NCBI GenBank assembly: GCA_905477785.1
Contig: CAJQGR010000072.1
Span: 1 to 36,114, forward strand
Direction: 5' to 3'
Length of the DNA stretch: 36,114 bases
From: an uncultured Hellea sp.
GTDB taxonomy: Bacteria > Pseudomonadota > Alphaproteobacteria > Caulobacterales > Maricaulaceae
In this document: positions 14,883-25,635 of the stretch, one piece after another
How the letters are laid out: each line of letters begins with the position of its first letter
Position numbering within the stretch: position 1 is the stretch's first letter
The notes under the pieces: model-generated
Databases searched by the model: none
What the model was told of the DNA's origin: nothing
What the model saw: only the letters and a program-made list of their open reading frames with translations
Program-made: the position numbers and the translations under genes

Positions 14883-15749
14883 TTATGCAGTATTGATAGG
14901 TATTTTTAAATAATGCTTACCATTATTCTCTGCTTTGGGTAGTTTTCCAGCTCTCATGTTTATTTGAATAGATGGTAACAATAACTTTGGTGTTTTTAAT
15001 GTCTTATCACGCATTGTTCGCATTTCTATAAAGGATTGTCTTTCTACACTGCTGTTTAAATGAATATTTTTTTCTTTTTGTTCATCAACTGTGGTTTCCC
15101 ATTTGTAATAATTGCGGTTTTTCGTTCTGTAATCGTGACAATGGAACAATCGGGTCTTTCCAGGTAGTTGATAGATTTTTTGCACTGAGTCATAAAGGCT
15201 TCCTGCATCACCACCTGGAAAATCACACCTTGCTGAACCGTAATCAGGCATGAATAATGTATCTCCAATAAATAATGCATCTGATATATGATAGGCAACA
15301 CAAGCGGGTGTGTGACCAGGTACGCTTATAACGGTTACACTCAAAGTACCAATTTGAAATTTTTCGCCATCATTAAATAACTTATCAAACTGGCTTCCAT
15401 TTCTTTTGAATTCTTTATTTTCGTTATATATTTTACCAAAAGCCTTTTGTACAAGAGGAATATTGCATCCCATAGCTACTTTACCACCAAGCCTACTCTT
15501 CAGAACCCCGGCTGCTGACAAATGGTCGGCATGCGCATGAGTTTCCAGTATCCATTGTGTCTTAAGATTATTATTGTTAATATAACTTATTATTTTTTCT
15601 AGCGATTCATCTGATGTGTATGCTGAATAAATATCAAACCCTAGTACTGAGTCTATTATTGCACATGATAAGCTTTTTGGGTCTGAGACGACATAGCTTA
15701 CTGTATTTGTACACTCATCAAAAAATGCTTCTATAATAGGTTTACTCAA
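14883..15749 (-). CDS. MBL-fold hydrolase, persulfide dioxygenase (ETHE1/Blh)-like
   Basis: This 288-residue metallo-beta-lactamase-fold protein has the metal motif THAHADHLSAA (His71, His73, Asp75, His76), His146 in PGHTPA, Asp163 in FIGDTLF and His205 in FHCHDY. The segment DYGSARCDFPGGD (169-181) is characteristic of the ETHE1 persulfide dioxygenase / Blh group, where a single iron oxidises glutathione persulfide to sulfite. It is more likely a sulfide or persulfide detoxification enzyme than a lactamase or glyoxalase II. A long dyad about 36 nt upstream suggests transcriptional control. Alphaproteobacterial relatives are commonly under ArsR-family sulfide sensors (BigR/SqrR). The 55-aa mini-protein follows it. 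Confidence 0.85.
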   Translation of the reverse strand: MSKPIIEAFFDECTNTVSYVVSDPKSLSCAIIDSVLGFDIYSAYTSDESLEKIISYINNNNLKTQWILETHAHADHLSAAGVLKSRLGGKVAMGCNIPLVQKAFGKIYNENKEFKRNGSQFDKLFNDGEKFQIGTLSVTVISVPGHTPACVAYHISDALFIGDTLFMPDYGSARCDFPGGDAGSLYDSVQKIYQLPGKTRLFHCHDYRTKNRNYYKWETTVDEQKEKNIHLNSSVERQSFIEMRTMRDKTLKTPKLLLPSIQINMRAGKLPKAENNGKHYLKIPINTA

Positions 15750-17364: not shown

Positions 17365-18372
17365 ATGCAAAAAAACTATAATTTTACAGTCAGTGTGGCT
17401 CCAATGATGGATTGGACTGATAGGCATTGTAGGTGGTTTCATAGAAAGCTATCTAAAAATATTTTACTTTATACGGAAATGGTTGTTGCTGAAGCAATTA
17501 TTTATGGGGATAAAGATTTTTTAATATCCTATAACACTGAGGAGCATCCAGTCGCATTACAGCTTGGCGGAAGTAACCCACAAAAACTTTCAAGAGCTGC
17601 TAAGATTGGCGAGCAATTTGGGTATGATGAGATTAATATAAATATTGGTTGTCCATCTGACAGGGTGCAATCTGGAAGATTTGGCGCGTGTCTTATGAGA
17701 GAGCCTGAATTAGTAGCGGATTGCTATGCTGCTATCAAAAATACTGTAGATATACCTGTTACTGTTAAATGCCGACTTGGAGTAGATCAACAAAATGTAT
17801 CTGAAACATTACCTCATTTTATTGAGACAGTATCCAGATCGGGTTGCGAACATTTTATTATACATGCCAGAAAAGCTTGGCTTAATGGTTTATCACCCAA
17901 AGAAAATCGTTCAATACCCCCTTTGCAATATTCAATGGTACATGAAATAAAAAAACAATTTTCAAATTTAGAAATTATATTAAATGGAGGTTTGAAGAAT
18001 ATATTAGACGCTAAAAATAATTCAATTGGGTTAGATGGCGTAATGTTTGGAAGAGCTGCATATCAGAACCCTTGGTTTTTAACTAAAGTTGATAAAAGTT
18101 TTTACGAAGAGCCAGTATTCACTGAAGGTCGTGATGACTTAGTTGAAGATTTAATTAGGTATGCCGAGTTAAAGCAAGACAGTGATAGATCTACAAAATC
18201 TCTTATTCGCCATATTATGGGTTTGTATGCTGGACAAATAGGAGCGCGGGCTTGGCGTAGGGCATTGAGTGAAGGAATATCTAATGGTCTAAAGCCATCC
18301 AAAATTATTAAAAAAGCGGCAGAAGAAGTTGATAAGACTAAAAACATTCTCAAAGTAAATTATGATGCCTGA
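17365..18372 (+). CDS. dusA: tRNA-dihydrouridine(20/20a) synthase
   Basis: This 335-residue FMN-dependent Dus enzyme reduces uridine 20/20a in the D-loop of tRNAs using NADPH. Motifs: VAPMMDWTDRHCR at the N-terminus, QLGGSNP (66-72) and NINIGCPSDRVQSGRFGACLM with catalytic Cys109. Further motifs are TVKCRLGVD, FIIHARKAWLNGLSPKENR (the DusA-specific KAWLxGLSPKENR element) and LNGG for FMN phosphate. Its length matches DusA. The last 11 nt overlap the TauE/SafE gene that follows. Confidence 0.96.
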   Translation: MQKNYNFTVSVAPMMDWTDRHCRWFHRKLSKNILLYTEMVVAEAIIYGDKDFLISYNTEEHPVALQLGGSNPQKLSRAAKIGEQFGYDEININIGCPSDRVQSGRFGACLMREPELVADCYAAIKNTVDIPVTVKCRLGVDQQNVSETLPHFIETVSRSGCEHFIIHARKAWLNGLSPKENRSIPPLQYSMVHEIKKQFSNLEIILNGGLKNILDAKNNSIGLDGVMFGRAAYQNPWFLTKVDKSFYEEPVFTEGRDDLVEDLIRYAELKQDSDRSTKSLIRHIMGLYAGQIGARAWRRALSEGISNGLKPSKIIKKAAEEVDKTKNILKVNYDA

Positions 18373-19198
18373 GTATTTTTTATTAGTTTTGATTTTACTA
18401 TCTGTGGGAGTTTTAGCGGGATTTAGTGCTGGCTTGTTTGGAGTAGGTGGTGGAGCCGTAATGGTTCCAGCTTTGTATTATGCTTTTAATGTTATCGGTG
18501 TTTCTGATGAATTAGTCATGCATTGTGCAGTCGCAACATCATCAGCTATAATAATCTTCAATAGTTTAAGGGCTGTCAAAAGTCATAATAAATTGGGTGC
18601 AATTGATTGGGAGCTATTATGGCCTGACTCAATTTTATCCTCTTATGTTTTTTGGATTGTAATAGGTTCATTCTTTGCAGCAAGTTTCTTGGCTTCAATT
18701 ATGTCTGCTCAATTCTTGATAATTTTATTTGCAATGGTGATGATACTAGTTTCATTGCATTTTATTTTTGGAAATAATAACTTAGAAATCCGTTCTTCTA
18801 TTCCTACTGGTTTAGCTACCCCAATTATTGGTTCATTGGTTGGTGCTTTGTCCTCATTAATGGGAATTGGGGGAGGGTCTATAACCGTTCCTTTAATGAA
18901 TATGTGCAGAATACCAATGAATAGAGCGGTGGCTACAGCCTCAGGTTTTGGATTTGCTATTTCTTTACCCGCCACAATAGGTTTTATTATATCTGGGTGG
19001 GGTATTGATGGCCGGCCCTCTTTCTCACTAGGGTATGTAAATGTTGTAGCATTAGTCTGCATTTTGAGCTCTGCTTTTTTTGTAATTCCTTATGGAGCAA
19101 AAATTGCGCAAATCTTACCTCAGAAACGATTAAAACTGCTATTTGGTTTGTGCTTACTTGCAGTAGCTTTAAACATGGCAAAGAATTCACTGTATTGA
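18362..19198 (+). CDS. TauE/SafE-family sulfite exporter-like permease
   Basis: This 278-residue protein has about eight membrane segments arranged as two repeats, each opening with a glycine-rich motif: GLFGVGGGAVMVPAL near the N-terminus and LMGIGGGSITVPLM in the middle. This is the hallmark of the TauE/SafE (DUF81) family, whose members export sulfite, sulfoacetate or other organic anions. The substrate here is unknown. The nearby persulfide-dioxygenase-like gene, whose relatives produce sulfite, makes sulfite export conceivable, though the two genes are in different transcription units. It overlaps dusA by 11 nt (start ATG 18362). Confidence 0.88.
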   Translation: MMPEYFLLVLILLSVGVLAGFSAGLFGVGGGAVMVPALYYAFNVIGVSDELVMHCAVATSSAIIIFNSLRAVKSHNKLGAIDWELLWPDSILSSYVFWIVIGSFFAASFLASIMSAQFLIILFAMVMILVSLHFIFGNNNLEIRSSIPTGLATPIIGSLVGALSSLMGIGGGSITVPLMNMCRIPMNRAVATASGFGFAISLPATIGFIISGWGIDGRPSFSLGYVNVVALVCILSSAFFVIPYGAKIAQILPQKRLKLLFGLCLLAVALNMAKNSLY

Positions 19199-19299: not shown

Positions 19300-20274
19300 A
19301 TGAAAAATGACCAACCTTTTGATGATATTATTGGATTAATAAATTCTGTACCAAGCCTAGATAATGTAGCATTTGAAGAAATTTATCAAGTTGCAGAAAA
19401 ATATGATTTAAAAACTTATTTAGGTAACAAAAATACAGATACTTTGAAAGTATTAGCCGCTGTGCAGGGCCATATTCCTGCGATTAAAAGACCTCTAATT
19501 TCTATATTTGCGGGAACTCATGGTGTTGCAGAAAGAATTTTAAATGGGAATATTTCTCACATCGCAAAAGATAAATTAAAGGCTGTTACCGATGGCAGCT
19601 CTGGTGTGCGAGGCATCGCAAAATCACTACAGGCAGCCTTCAAAGTTTATGAATTAGGAGTAGAATATCCATCTACTGACTTCGCGAAAGCGCCTTCGTT
19701 ATCGGAAAAGGACTGTGCGGCCGCTATAGCTTTTGGTATGGAGGTTGTAGCTGAGGGTGCTGATATCATAGCGATAGGGTGTGTAGGGCTTGAAACAAAT
19801 ACAGCGGCTAAAGCAATTGCTGCCAGCTTATATGAAGAAAGTCCTGTTTATTACTTCAAGGACCTCCGCAAGGAAAATAGTTCACGCTTAGAGGCATTAG
19901 AAAAGGGGCTATTATTGCATAAAAATTTTATGAACTCGCCTTTAGATATTCTTAGGTGCTTTGGGGGCCGCGATATAGCTGGAATGCTCGGAGCCATAAT
20001 TGCAGCAAGGCATCAATGTATACCTGTGATATTAGACGGTTTTTCTGTTTGTATAGCTGCTGCCATTCTGCACAGCATTAACAAAGAGTCCATTTCTCAC
20101 TGTATTGCTGGGCATGTAACAACTGAACGGGGACATGAAGCTCTACTAGAGAAGATTAGTTTAATTCCAATTCATGATATGGGTATTGGAATTGGAGATG
20201 GATCTGGAGCTGCTTTTGCACTAAATACGATGAGGCTTAATTGCGAAGCCCTATCAACAATTATTGAAAAATAA
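19300..20274 (+). CDS. divergent CobT-family (nicotinate-nucleotide:DMB phosphoribosyltransferase-like) protein
   Basis: This 324-residue protein aligns by eye to CobT along most of its length: RPLISIFAGTHGV (64-76), LSEKDCAAAIAFGMEV, GGRDIAGMLGAIIAA (222-236), IPVILDGF and the C-terminal IGIGDGSGAAFAL. CobT forms alpha-ribazole phosphate, the lower ligand of cobalamin, from nicotinate mononucleotide and a base. Several signature sites differ: the N-terminal TKPxGSLG element is absent, AGDHG is AGTHG, GEMGIGNT is GCVGLETNT (Cys161 for the catalytic Glu), and GEG is GDG (Asp300). It may be a paralogue with another substrate. No cobalamin riboswitch precedes it. It is followed after 16 nt by a leucine-dehydrogenase-type gene. 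Confidence 0.75.
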   Translation: MKNDQPFDDIIGLINSVPSLDNVAFEEIYQVAEKYDLKTYLGNKNTDTLKVLAAVQGHIPAIKRPLISIFAGTHGVAERILNGNISHIAKDKLKAVTDGSSGVRGIAKSLQAAFKVYELGVEYPSTDFAKAPSLSEKDCAAAIAFGMEVVAEGADIIAIGCVGLETNTAAKAIAASLYEESPVYYFKDLRKENSSRLEALEKGLLLHKNFMNSPLDILRCFGGRDIAGMLGAIIAARHQCIPVILDGFSVCIAAAILHSINKESISHCIAGHVTTERGHEALLEKISLIPIHDMGIGIGDGSGAAFALNTMRLNCEALSTIIEK

Positions 20275-20290
20275 TATTACGGATTACTAT

Positions 20291-21331
20291 ATGTCTATTT
20301 TTTCAAATCCAGAATTTGACAATCATGAAAGTGTTTATGCTTTTACAGATCCTAAAAGTTTGATGCGTTGTTTTATTGCTGTTCACAATACTAAAATGGG
20401 TCCTGCAAGTGGAGGTACTCGTTTTTGGAACTATGCCGATGATGAAGAAGCCCTAAGTGACGCGTTGAGGCTTTCTAAAGCGATGAGCTATAAGAATGCC
20501 CTAGCGGGAATACCTTTGGGGGGTGGAAAGGGGGTTATAATTAAGCCTAAAGAACCATTTGACAGAAAAAATTTATTCACCGCCTACGGTAAAGCAATAG
20601 ATAAAGTTGGAGGTAAATACATAACGGCAGAGGATGTCGGCGTAAGTCCAGATGATATGGCGACAATAAAGACTGAGACTGATTTTGTAGCTGGGTTAGA
20701 AGTTGGAATTTCTGCCTCAGGTGACCCATCGCCACATACAGCCGATGGTATTCTACGTGGAATGGAAGAAGCTGTTAAATATAAACTTGGTGTGGAGGGT
20801 TTGGGAGGAATTACTGTAGCTATTCAAGGTTTGGGTCATGTGGGATATGATCTAGCTAGGCGATTGCATCGTGTTGGCGCACATTTAATAGTATCAGACA
20901 TCAATAAATGTTTAACTAAAAAAGCAGAGCAAGAACTAGATGCTACTGTTGTTTCTATAAATGAAATTCATGCCCAAGAAGCTGATATTTTTTCTCCTTG
21001 TGCACTGGGTGGGTCTATTAACCCCGATACACTACCTGACATTGAAGCTTATATTATTGCAGGTGCAGCTAATAATCAGCTTTCAGATAGTTCAATTGGA
21101 ATAAAACTGCTCAAGAAAAATATATTACATTGCCCCGATTACATAATAAATGCAGGTGGAATAATTAATGTAGCCTCAGAGATTTCCGGACACTATGATC
21201 GATCTTGGGTGAGCGATAAAATAGATAATATTCGAAGAAATTTAAAAGAAGTGTTTAAACAGTCAGAATTATCAAAAACTCCAACTAATGAAGTTGCTGA
21301 TAATATGGCTAGGAAGCTTTTGGGAAGATAA
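20291..21331 (+). CDS. leucine dehydrogenase-type Glu/Leu/Phe/Val dehydrogenase
   Basis: I start at ATG 20291 (346 aa) rather than the TTG at 20264 inside the CobT-like gene. With this start the catalytic lysines fall at Lys68 and Lys80 (SYKNALAGIPLGGGKG), the same numbering as in Bacillus leucine dehydrogenases. The substrate loop GPASGGTRFW (37-46), the hinge aspartate region ITAEDVGVS and the NAD-binding GLGHVGYDLARRL are all present. The enzyme should catalyse NAD+-linked reversible deamination of branched-chain (or aromatic) amino acids to 2-oxo acids. It is probably co-transcribed with the CobT-like gene. Confidence 0.92.
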   Translation: MSIFSNPEFDNHESVYAFTDPKSLMRCFIAVHNTKMGPASGGTRFWNYADDEEALSDALRLSKAMSYKNALAGIPLGGGKGVIIKPKEPFDRKNLFTAYGKAIDKVGGKYITAEDVGVSPDDMATIKTETDFVAGLEVGISASGDPSPHTADGILRGMEEAVKYKLGVEGLGGITVAIQGLGHVGYDLARRLHRVGAHLIVSDINKCLTKKAEQELDATVVSINEIHAQEADIFSPCALGGSINPDTLPDIEAYIIAGAANNQLSDSSIGIKLLKKNILHCPDYIINAGGIINVASEISGHYDRSWVSDKIDNIRRNLKEVFKQSELSKTPTNEVADNMARKLLGR

Positions 21332-21458: not shown

Positions 21459-23213
21459 ATGAATCAACCTACCCCAACAAATCGCGGTAAGTCCATACGA
21501 CATGGTGATTTTGATACACTTTGTGATGCACTGGATTATGCTGCTTTATGCGAAACTGGTCTCAATTTTTTTGACGGTCGAGCAAGGCTTAAAGAATCAC
21601 TTACATATAAAAACTTAAGAATAAAGTCGCAAGCTCTTGCAAAACGTTTAGTTCCATTTGCGGCTAAGAACTCCAGAATAGGTCTTGCTGCAGTGACAAC
21701 ACCGGAATTTGCTATCATTTTCATGGCCTGTCAATATGCTGGTCTTGTGCCTGCCCCATTGCCACTTCCTGTAACTTTGGGAGGTAGAAATTCATATGAA
21801 AGGCAACTTCAAAGATTAGCAGATACAGGCGATTTTCATGCTCTTTTCTGTCCTGAGTCTATGCAACAGATTATGGGGTCTGCATTAAATGATAAAGCCA
21901 TTCCAGTAATGTCATTCGAAGATTTAGAAAAACTCCCTGATGGAAATGAATTAAGACCGTTTGATAAAGATGATTTGTGTTACATTCAATATTCGTCAGG
22001 TTCCTCGAGTTCACCTAAAGGAATAATAGGCACTCAGGCTTCCGTCTCTGCTAATTGTCATGCAATTACAAAATTTGGTATGGAAATGGATGATAATGAT
22101 AGAGGGACAAGCTGGCTACCTCTTTATCATGATATGGGATTGATTGGATTTATGCTCGCCCCAATAATGAGTCAGATGACTGTAGACTATATTGACCCTC
22201 AAGATTTCACACGTAGGCCTATTACTTGGTTGCAGTTAATTAATGACCATAAGAGCACTTTTTCTTTTTCACCCACATTTGGCTATGAATTATGTGTTCG
22301 TCGCTGGAGAAATGATAGAAATCTAGACCTCTCTAGTTGGAAGGCAGCTGGCATAGGAGGGGACATGGTGCGACCTGAGCCATTGACTGAATTTTCAACT
22401 TTATTTTCGAAGATGGGTTTTTCTGAAGGTACTTTTAAGCCTAGTTATGGTTTGGCAGAGACTACACTTGCCGCAACTTTTTCACCTCCGGGGCAAGGGT
22501 TATTAAAGCATACTATTGATATGGAAAGATATGAGCGCACCTCAGAAGCTATCGAAGCAAATGAGATTACTAATATTGAACATAAAAGAACTTTTGTAGC
22601 ATGTGGACTTGTCCTTCCAGGTCATGAAATCGAAATTAGAGACTTTGATGGTAATGTTCTAGATGGGAATAAGGTAGGAAAAATTTGCTTAAGAGGACCA
22701 AGTGTTTCACCCGGATATTTTCGTAACACTCAAGCAACCGAAGCAAGTTTTTCATCAGATGGTTGGCTGGATACAGGAGATTTAGGTTATTGGCTTGATA
22801 ATCAATTAGTCGTTACTGGAAGGTTTAAAGATCTTATACTTTGGCATGGTAGAAACATTTGGCCACAGGATATAGAATGGGCAGCACAAGCAGCAGCTCC
22901 TCATCGTATTGGCAGGGCCTGCTCTTTTGCGATGGGCGGTGTCGGTGATCAGAAAGAAATTATGCTTTTATTGGAATGTAGAACTAGAGATCAAAAGCTA
23001 CTTGATGAAATATACAGTTCAGTCATGACCGCTATAAGATTGGAAGTGGGCGTTCCAGTGCGATTGCAGTTAGTCCCTAAAAGCACCATGGTTATAACAT
23101 CTTCTGGAAAGTTATCACGTGCACGTGTAAAAGCGAAGTTCCTTAATGGTGAAATAATTGATATTCAAGCTGATAGTCCGGTATCTATTATCGGAAATGA
23201 GACTGCTTTATAA
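21459..23213 (+). CDS. fatty acyl-AMP ligase / acyl-ACP synthetase of the sphingolipid cluster (AasR-like)
   Basis: This 584-residue adenylate-forming enzyme has the P-loop YSSGSSSSPKG (178-188) and the FAAL hallmark WLPLYHDMGLIG (219-230). It also has YGLAETTLA, DTGDLGYW, GRFKDLILWHGRNIWPQDIE and the C-terminal lysine element TSSGKLSRARVKAKF. It belongs with fatty acyl-AMP ligases that load an acyl group onto an ACP rather than CoA. Its operon partners are an ACP and serine palmitoyltransferase. Its likely role is therefore charging that ACP with a fatty acid for sphingolipid long-chain-base synthesis, as proposed for AasR in Caulobacter. It is the first gene of the unit; the next gene starts 1 nt after its stop. 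Confidence 0.88.
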   Translation: MNQPTPTNRGKSIRHGDFDTLCDALDYAALCETGLNFFDGRARLKESLTYKNLRIKSQALAKRLVPFAAKNSRIGLAAVTTPEFAIIFMACQYAGLVPAPLPLPVTLGGRNSYERQLQRLADTGDFHALFCPESMQQIMGSALNDKAIPVMSFEDLEKLPDGNELRPFDKDDLCYIQYSSGSSSSPKGIIGTQASVSANCHAITKFGMEMDDNDRGTSWLPLYHDMGLIGFMLAPIMSQMTVDYIDPQDFTRRPITWLQLINDHKSTFSFSPTFGYELCVRRWRNDRNLDLSSWKAAGIGGDMVRPEPLTEFSTLFSKMGFSEGTFKPSYGLAETTLAATFSPPGQGLLKHTIDMERYERTSEAIEANEITNIEHKRTFVACGLVLPGHEIEIRDFDGNVLDGNKVGKICLRGPSVSPGYFRNTQATEASFSSDGWLDTGDLGYWLDNQLVVTGRFKDLILWHGRNIWPQDIEWAAQAAAPHRIGRACSFAMGGVGDQKEIMLLLECRTRDQKLLDEIYSSVMTAIRLEVGVPVRLQLVPKSTMVITSSGKLSRARVKAKFLNGEIIDIQADSPVSIIGNETAL

Positions 23214-23214
23214 G

Positions 23215-24132
23215 ATGTCAAAACCTTTAATAGCAATAACTGGTGGTTCGGGTTTCATCGGTAAGCATATGATATCGGCTCTATTAAGCAGTGGATATAA
23301 AGTTAAGGCACTTGTAAGAAAAAAAATAAAATTAGTGCATTTAAAGCACCCTAACTTAGAAATACTAGAAGGCTCTCTAGATGATAATGGGGTAGCATTA
23401 GTTAAGGGTTCAGATATTCTCTTATCATTTGCAGGTGCAGTAAAGGGTCGAAACTTTTCTGAATTGATGGAAATAAATTGTCATTTTAACAGTAATTTAG
23501 CTAGAATTGCAAATGAACAGGGTGTGACTAGATTAGTATTATTATCATCGCAAGTTGCGTCTCAGCCTCATCTTTCAAGTTACGCTCTTTCAAAGTTTCA
23601 TGGTGAAAATGCGGTAAAAGAAAATTTTACAAATAATATTGCTATAATTCGTGCACCTGCTGTTTTTGGACCAGGTGATAAAGCTACTAAGCCATTTTTT
23701 GATTTTATAGAAAAAGGTATATTGCCAGTTGCAGGTGGTAAGGATTGGCGTAATCGCAAAACTGCAATGGTTTATGTATCTGACTTAGTAAATGATATAA
23801 TAGAGAATGCTTTAATTGGTAATTATGATGATAAGGTAATTACTCCATCCTCTATAGGGGGCGTTTCTTGGGAAAGTTTTGCAAATTACTCAAAATTAGC
23901 ATTAGGAAAAAGAATTAAAATTTTACCAATTCCACTACCTATATTATATGTTTTTGCTGCTATGAATTCACTTAGCTTGCGCTTGTTTGGAATTGGCCAT
24001 TTGTCTATAGGCAAATTACGAGAATTCCTTTATGTAGATTGGTCAAGTAAGGATTTTATTAAAAACTCAACACCGTTTACTGAAGCGTTACGTATTACGT
24101 CTAATTACTACAAGAAAGAAAAAAATGTCTAA
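23215..24132 (+). CDS. NAD(P)-dependent SDR/epimerase-type reductase, CerR-like
   Basis: I start at ATG 23215 (305 aa), one base after the ligase stop, rather than at an upstream TTG. The N-terminal Rossmann motif ITGGSGFIGKHM and the active-site-like YALSK (in SSYALSKFHGE) mark an extended SDR of the NDUFA9/epimerase-like type. In Caulobacter a homologue in the same gene neighbourhood (CerR) reduces the ketone of the sphingoid base or ceramide intermediate. The same role is inferred here from context. It lacks UDP-sugar epimerase-specific features I could identify. The stop overlaps the ACP start by 8 nt. Confidence 0.82.
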   Translation: MSKPLIAITGGSGFIGKHMISALLSSGYKVKALVRKKIKLVHLKHPNLEILEGSLDDNGVALVKGSDILLSFAGAVKGRNFSELMEINCHFNSNLARIANEQGVTRLVLLSSQVASQPHLSSYALSKFHGENAVKENFTNNIAIIRAPAVFGPGDKATKPFFDFIEKGILPVAGGKDWRNRKTAMVYVSDLVNDIIENALIGNYDDKVITPSSIGGVSWESFANYSKLALGKRIKILPIPLPILYVFAAMNSLSLRLFGIGHLSIGKLREFLYVDWSSKDFIKNSTPFTEALRITSNYYKKEKNV

Positions 24133-24373
24133 GCCAACACGTAAAGAAATTCATAATAAAATTTGTGAACTACTAAAGCCATATAATCCAAAAAATCATC
24201 CAATTAAAGAAAGCAGTGGGATAATGACAGACTTAGAAGTAGATTCTGTAGCTGTTTTTGATCTAGTGATGGGGCTTGAGGACTTCTATGATATATCTAT
24301 ACCTATGGAATTAATCTCTGACATAAGAACTGTTGGTGAGTTATCAATCGCAATAAAAGAACTAATTGAATAA
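24125..24373 (+). CDS. acyl carrier protein of the sphingolipid cluster (AcpR-like)
   Basis: This 82-residue acidic ACP has the phosphopantetheine attachment Ser41 in LEVDSVAVFDLVMGLEDFY. The DSV triplet replaces the DSL of the fatty-acid-synthesis ACP. Only one such dedicated ACP is seen, placed between the CerR-like gene (8-nt overlap) and serine palmitoyltransferase (11-nt gap). Its expected role is to present an acyl thioester, made by the upstream ligase, to serine palmitoyltransferase. The window shows no holo-ACP synthase. Confidence 0.92.
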   Translation: MSKPTRKEIHNKICELLKPYNPKNHPIKESSGIMTDLEVDSVAVFDLVMGLEDFYDISIPMELISDIRTVGELSIAIKELIE

Positions 24374-24384
24374 TAGGTTTAAAA

Positions 24385-25635
24385 ATGAGTAACGTCTTGA
24401 ACTATGCTGCATCATCGATTTTTGATAAATACGCGATCTTACAATCACGCGTAGATTTAATGATGAAGATCGGCAAGGATGCTTTGGGTTTGAAATTTGA
24501 TGATATTGTAAGTGCAACCAAAGGAAAAATTGATGGTCGAGAAATATTGTTGGCGGGTACAAATAATTATCTTGGTTTAACTTTTGATGATGACTGCATG
24601 AAAGCTGCAAAGAATGCGGTTGATAAGCATGGTACCGGAACGACAGGTTCTCGTGTAGCTAACGGAAGTTATAACGAACATATCCAGCTTGAAAAAGCAT
24701 TAGCTGAGCACTTGAAAATGGAAAGTTGCGTGGTTTTCACAACGGGTTATCAGACAAATCTAGCTGCTATATCGGGTTTAGCGGGTGATAATGATGTAAT
24801 ATTTATGGATGCAGATGCTCATGCCTGCGTAATTGATGGTACAAGACTTACCTCTTCTTCTACCATACGGTTTAGACATAATAATCCAGAAGACTTGGAT
24901 AAGAGACTTAAGCGTCAGGGAGACATCTCTGATGGGCATGCTTTGGTTGTGATTGAGGGTATGTATTCAATGTTTGGAGACATAGCTCCTGTCGATGAAT
25001 TTGTAGACGTGACTCACAGACACGGTGGTTATTTATATATAGATGAAGCACACTCCTATGGTGTTTTTGGCCCCACGGGGTGTGGCATTGCTGAAGAACA
25101 GGGTGTTTTAGATAAAATAGATTTTATTTCTGGTACATTTTCTAAATCACTTGCTTCGGTTGGAGGCTTTTGTGCCTCAAGACATAAAGAGTTTGAGATA
25201 CTTAGGAAGGTAATGAGACCATACATGTTTACTGCCTCTGCCACACCTTCAAATATTTGTGCGGCATTAATGGCAGTAGAAAAGGTAAAAGAGGGACATC
25301 ATTTAAGAAAAAATTTAAAGACCCGTTCCTTACAGTTGCACTCTGGACTTAGTGAAATGGGCTACGATATATGCGCTGATGCTAGTCCAGTTATTGCTGT
25401 ACGGAGGCCTAATGAAGCAGTTGCTGCCATGGAATGGAATTGGCTTATTGAAAATGGTGTGTATGTAAATTTAGCTGTACCGCCAGGTACTCCACAGAGC
25501 TCAAGTTTACTACGAATTAGTTTGTCAGCTGCCCACACTGAAATGGATATTAATACAATACTCAAAGCTTTCTCTAATTTAAAATCAAATCAACAGGAGT
25601 TAATGGCGAGAATGTCCGCTCGTTTAGCAAAGTAA
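24385..25635 (+). CDS. spt: serine palmitoyltransferase
   Basis: This 416-residue PLP enzyme belongs to the alpha-oxoamine synthase family. Motifs are GTNNYLGLTFD (58-68), HGTGTTGSR (82-90), EGMYSMFGDIAP, DEAHSYGVFG (220-229) and the PLP lysine Lys254 in GTFSKSLASVGG. The family also includes KBL, AONS and ALAS. The neighbouring dedicated ACP, acyl ligase and CerR-like reductase favour SPT, which condenses L-serine with an acyl thioester to 3-keto-sphinganine. It is the last gene of the operon and ends 15 nt before a strong hairpin. Confidence 0.92.
   Translation: MSNVLNYAASSIFDKYAILQSRVDLMMKIGKDALGLKFDDIVSATKGKIDGREILLAGTNNYLGLTFDDDCMKAAKNAVDKHGTGTTGSRVANGSYNEHIQLEKALAEHLKMESCVVFTTGYQTNLAAISGLAGDNDVIFMDADAHACVIDGTRLTSSSTIRFRHNNPEDLDKRLKRQGDISDGHALVVIEGMYSMFGDIAPVDEFVDVTHRHGGYLYIDEAHSYGVFGPTGCGIAEEQGVLDKIDFISGTFSKSLASVGGFCASRHKEFEILRKVMRPYMFTASATPSNICAALMAVEKVKEGHHLRKNLKTRSLQLHSGLSEMGYDICADASPVIAVRRPNEAVAAMEWNWLIENGVYVNLAVPPGTPQSSSLLRISLSAAHTEMDINTILKAFSNLKSNQQELMARMSARLAK

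Follow-up and report, generated by a model that had tools for sequence, protein, structure and literature searches.

What does a CobT homologue do once the residues with which CobT works have been replaced, in a genome that carries none of the partners needed to use its product? The question is raised by a 36,114-nucleotide stretch of DNA (the window), corresponding to contig 72 in the assembly (genome G000; 1.83 Mb, 97% complete) of a bacterium close to Hellea in the Caulobacterales. Four adjacent genes are central to it:

17365..18372 (+), DusA tRNA dihydrouridine synthase (NCBIfam PRK11815, 474 bits; synteny)
18362..19198 (+), TauE/SafE-family transporter (PF01925, 148 bits; synteny)
19300..20274 (+), altered CobT-like protein, 324 aa (Pfam DBI_PRT, alignment, clade with 100/100 support)
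20291..21331 (+), ELFV (leucine-dehydrogenase-type) dehydrogenase (PF02812 and PF00208; synteny)

A CobT homologue with an altered active site

A sequence-only reading had described the frame at 19300-20274 (+) as a CobT homologue, and the frame is indeed open for 324 aa. Its product belongs to the CobT superfamily, scoring 181 bits with PF02277 (DBI_PRT; cut-off 22.6) and covering profile positions 35-319 of 329. Models specific to CobT give only about half of their cut-offs (TIGR03160, the CobT equivalog, 158 bits against 319; NF000996, 179 against 306). The protein is homologous over residues 52-319 to the CobT enzyme (EC 2.4.2.21; Salmonella 1d0s, Thermus 1wx1, E. coli b1991), and the nearest solved structures are Thermus CobT, ArsA (4hdk) and the Salmonella-type CobT. 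An AlphaFold model based on four sequences was unusable (pLDDT 36).

In Salmonella CobT, Glu317 is the general base and Glu174 contacts the ribose O2' (PMC9561151). An alignment with E. coli CobT and 110 relatives confirmed that both glutamates are substituted in the window protein: Cys161 aligns with the glutamate of GELGMANTT (the Glu174 position), and Asp300 with that of LGEGSGAA (the Glu317 position). The TKPxGSLG element, also reported as missing, proved to have no counterpart, the E. coli LLKPVGSLGKLE loop being replaced by YDLKTYLGNKNT. At the phosphate site, lysine has become Arg196. DGF, GGxD/E, His272 and the glycine framework are still present. The window protein differs from the enzyme in missing two active-site glutamates, a KPxGSLG loop and a phosphate-site lysine, and in coming from a genome without CobS or CobU.

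One supposed anomaly did not survive comparison. AGTHG had been listed among the deviating motifs, but among alphaproteobacterial CobTs whose catalytic motifs are all present, AGNHG, AGSHG and AGTHG occur at this site (sequences L079-L106 were checked for AGxHG); as AGTHG occurs in L100, whose motifs are intact, it was dropped as a sign of altered catalysis. Cys161 is private to the window protein, the residue being Ser in an 81%-identical sister (L002) and Asn in 13 of the 16 members of the family to which both belong (f1). It was rejected as a new catalytic residue because the position is not conserved in f1. Asp300, by comparison, is common to all 16.

The place of the former cobS-cobT pair

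In most Alphaproteobacteria examined, cobT stands head-to-head with cobS, and DusA and the TauE/SafE transporter are conserved upstream markers of this old locus. The order in L050, for example, is DusA, retropepsin, cobS, cobT, and in L080 and L081 the pair is followed by acyl-CoA dehydrogenase genes. In families f1, f2 and f3, the DusA (TauE) retropepsin block leads directly into the altered gene, without cobS; at the window locus the retropepsin is absent too. After the altered gene come acyl-CoA dehydrogenases in f2 and f3, and a leucine-dehydrogenase-type gene in f1. This gene order suggests that cobS dropped out and that the altered gene stands at the old cobT position.

The ELFV dehydrogenase gene lies directly downstream of the altered cobT with a gap of 16 bases, and its start at 20291 matches the starts in relatives. 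It is probably an operon partner, in family f1 only. Its proximity had been read as support for a different job of the CobT-like protein, a use that the wider comparison does not bear out. Two sister families have acyl-CoA dehydrogenase genes there instead; the leucine-dehydrogenase-type gene is found in 52 of 59 f1 genomes, with or without a CobT-like gene, including whole genera that have none; and in genus g2 it is several genes away. The link between the two genes is therefore positional and restricted to f1: the altered gene occupies the old cobT place and the dehydrogenase occurs independently. A functional dependence on it was rejected, since the dehydrogenase gene occurs in genomes without a CobT-like gene.

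A variant of the pair was seen in genome G439 (family f14), where a weak CobS-like protein (L110:321-1322, -; 32 bits) stands head-to-head with an altered CobT, in the ancestral order; its sequence is REDGLVETVN where CobS has the HEDGLAD motif. Both members of the cobS-cobT pair appear to be altered there.

Two kinds of CobT in the Caulobacterales

A genome search found CobT homologues in 85 of 200 genomes of the order, in two strata. The lower one consists of E. coli-like CobTs adjoining cobS, and all of those examined have intact catalytic motifs. The upper one holds the orthologues of the window gene, and here genus g15 (family f4) and G057 (f3) retain every motif along with a head-to-head cobS. 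Catalytic motifs have been lost in f1, the window's family, in f2 and in genus g21 of f3, each in a different manner. The catalytic pair reads Asn/Ser/Cys/Ala and Asp in f1, and mostly Val and Gly in f2, where two proteins counted as altered (L021 and L034) have both glutamates present and the KP pair and part of the phosphate loop gone. In f3 g21 the pocket loops are deleted; judging from these sequences, the catalytic constraint is gone.

A tree places the f1 proteins, except those of genus g2, in a single clade (support 100/100) inside the alphaproteobacterial CobT lineage; a second clade (100/98) is made up of the E. coli-like copies. The separate clade asked about earlier was therefore recovered, and the alternative, clustering inside functional CobT with the same substitutions, is not what the tree shows. 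The catalytic-pair states need six changes on this tree, so the alteration was not a single event; resolution is poor for the deep branches that connect the altered groups, and the bootstrap had not settled. From its sequence relationships, the window gene is an altered descendant of an ordinary alphaproteobacterial cobT. A search of viral contigs returned no relatives.

Co-occurrence with CobS

With CobS counted only as a strong match (E < 1e-38), all 48 of the surveyed Caulobacterales genomes that have an intact CobT also have CobS, which occurs in none of the 37 with an altered CobT only. In 32 Caulobacterales genomes the altered gene is found together with a second, intact E. coli-like CobT beside CobS. 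Four g17 genomes with weak CobS-like matches (E ~1e-7) and no CobT were left out of the counts. Elsewhere in the class 27 of 27 genomes fit: all 20 with intact CobT have CobS, as do none of the 7 without a fully intact CobT. These are counts of related genomes, so not of independent events; the lineages behind them are f1, f2, f3, f14, f120, f57, f16 and f100, with f62 as an intermediate.

The window genome follows the same rule. A canonical CobT elsewhere in it was looked for and none was found, the window protein being its sole CobT homologue. No PF02654 (CobS) match was found in this or any listed f1 genome, and no CobU in the window genome. With neither CobS nor CobU in the genome, the known route offers no way to attach any alpha-ribotide made. 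The proposal of a different job, outside cobamide assembly, is strongly supported by this, and the association of an altered CobT alone with the lack of CobS held in every genome tested. By sequence and by genome context alike, the window protein is a member of the CobT superfamily that does not qualify as CobT the enzyme.

The genome shows signs of B12 use. A cobalamin riboswitch lies upstream of a TonB-dependent receptor gene, and a small B12-binding protein is encoded along with a 715-aa frame that has a B12-binding domain; the organism appears to import and use B12 while being unable to assemble the nucleotide loop. Such import and use is one reason to consider that the protein may still be a working CobT, with Asp300 replacing Glu317 as the base and alpha-ribotides serving cobamide salvage or remodelling. 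Its membership of the same protein family and the conservative nature of a Glu-to-Asp change point the same way. Nevertheless, with no known route to attach the alpha-ribotide, no CobS in any family genome carrying the gene, and both the base-side loop and the ribose-contacting glutamate gone, we regard this as very improbable.

Two previously described kinds of CobT homologue can be compared with the window protein. The CobT of Methanocaldococcus jannaschii (MjCobT) has Val at position 317 and uses Asp52 as base (PMC9561151), which shows that a CobT can work without a glutamate there. However, MjCobT is active, keeps a ribose-contacting Glu150 and serves cobamide synthesis, whereas the window protein has Cys161 at that position and a genome without CobS. 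ArsA and ArsB of Sporomusa-type bacteria are CobT homologues that activate phenolic bases and are specialised away from DMB; they are encoded by tandem genes in cobamide producers (PMC6461909), unlike the window gene, which is single and in a genome without nucleotide-loop assembly. The Caulobacter 'cobT' CCNA_01367 (PMC11870441) was set aside as a cobaltochelatase subunit that shares only the name. No description of these altered CobT-like proteins was found in the open-access papers searched.

Selection and conservation

The altered genes are under strong purifying selection. Between close pairs, dN/dS is 0.03-0.21, against 0.03-0.25 for intact CobT, and on these values a pseudogene was rejected; the window frame, in which the earlier reading had seen no sign of decay, is likewise under purifying selection. 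Compared with its sister L002, the window has a dN/dS of 0.21 in the CobT-like gene and 0.04-0.17 in the neighbours. In the same pair, synonymous divergence (pS) is 0.37 in the CobT-like gene, lower than the 0.54-0.59 of the FAAL, SPT-like and LeuDH neighbours.

A functionless relic of a lost B12 pathway, in slow decay, could account for the raised ratio in this streamlined lineage. It would also fit the loss of the gene from several f1 genera with flanking order unchanged; the gene is evidently dispensable, because half of the f1 genera have lost it, and this counts against the pseudoenzyme reading below. In addition, a six-frame search found three altered matches in f3 g21 (G196, G171 and G116) with one in-frame stop, which may come from reading past the genuine end of the gene or from decay confined to single species. 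Against a relic stand dN/dS values down to 0.03-0.07 in f2 and f14, the full-length open frame that the altered gene keeps in more than 60 verified genomes, and conservation outside the pocket that equals or exceeds that of intact CobT of similar divergence. Slow decay is therefore an improbable explanation, if a less improbable one than a working CobT.

Conservation was also compared between the pocket loops and the remainder of the protein. In two intact CobT groups the pocket is more conserved than the rest (0.84 and 0.85 against 0.72 and 0.70; p = 1e-6 and 6e-9), a comparison that favours intact CobT by construction, since the pocket set was taken from canonical motifs. The informative result is that altered groups fall below their own rest: 0.66 against 0.77 in f1, 0.81 against 0.86 in f2, and 0.86 against 0.91 in f3 g21. 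Conserved residues outside the pocket include Pro6, Asp9, Glu148, Arg224 and Gln239. The sequence-only reading had left open whether the protein activates another base or uses another phosphoribosyl donor, or is non-catalytic. That it is no longer an ordinary CobT stands; of the two options, the non-catalytic one is favoured by the conservation pattern, in that the pocket has become less conserved than the rest.

Nevertheless, some features of the pocket argue for a re-specified site. In f1 several of its positions have been refixed, with Asp300, Arg196, Ser133 and Asp225 each invariant in 16 of 16 proteins, and in f2 the new loops (GMGREGDFGRLG, GAGxGT, TGGGxGS) are near-invariant between genera in some 35 sequences. 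Both could reflect a new ligand site, and archaeal CobT shows that another acid can act as base, Asp doing so in MjCobT (PMC9561151). The protein might then still be a phosphoribosyltransferase or ligand binder outside cobamide metabolism, for another base or ribosyl donor, with Asp300 acting as base and Arg196 occupying the phosphate site. The lower conservation of the pocket in all three groups speaks against this, as do changes that are incompatible among the three families and have deleted parts of the pocket in f3 g21. We consider such a site unlikely, although a more serious contender than a decaying relic.

A probable pseudoenzyme

With its catalytic residues lost and purifying selection kept, the window protein has the marks of a pseudoenzyme of the CobT fold. 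It most likely has no base-activating activity, and we think it probable, though by no means certain, that it has a non-catalytic role exerted through its fold or surface.

The gene goes back by vertical descent to an alphaproteobacterial cobT that stood head-to-head with cobS, between the DusA/retropepsin block and downstream catabolic genes. When assembly of the cobamide nucleotide loop ceased in the lineage, cobS would have been lost and CobT freed of catalytic constraint. The altered cobT has been kept under purifying selection, presumably for a job other than activation of the lower-ligand base and independent of the DMB pocket; the protein might, for instance, be a regulator or a binding partner.

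This job may even date from before the loss, as a second role of CobT that survived the first, a possibility raised because several lineages show the same outcome: three families of the Caulobacterales, and several lineages besides, have lost cobS and still have cobT in place, with a pocket dismantled in a different way in each. More generally, alphaproteobacterial CobT might serve a further purpose unconnected with cobamides (binding of a partner or sensing of a metabolite), one that persists after B12 assembly is lost and was kept independently in several lineages, including genomes with a second, intact CobT of another type. This broader idea is tentative, and clearly less probable than the pseudoenzyme reading itself.

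These results also bear on annotation. Databases would give such genes a CobT label, a misleading one, in many Caulobacterales and other Alphaproteobacteria that have no rest of nucleotide-loop assembly, and B12 predictions that count cobT are misled by them. Because intact CobT and CobS co-occur without exception, a simple rule can tell real from altered CobT. The parallel retentions raise a testable question: what is CobT's job once B12 is no longer made?

Other features of the window and its genome

No MetH activation domain was found in the window genome. All six genomes of the genus Hellea are without it, and it is present in 45 of 59 family genomes. G000 also encodes a corrinoid protein beside a DUF1638-like protein (C3:31678-32007, L182), presumably a pair as in methylamine or betaine demethylation sets.

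At 14883-15749 (-) the window encodes an MBL-fold protein that resembles part of the Blh dioxygenase; it scores 371 bits with NF040641, below the cut-off of 625, and aligns to profile positions 141-422 of 423 only. At 21459-25635 (+), genes for a fatty acyl-AMP ligase, an NAD-dependent epimerase, an acyl carrier protein and a serine-palmitoyltransferase-type aminotransferase form a row that is conserved in relatives and looks like a bacterial sphingolipid-type cluster.
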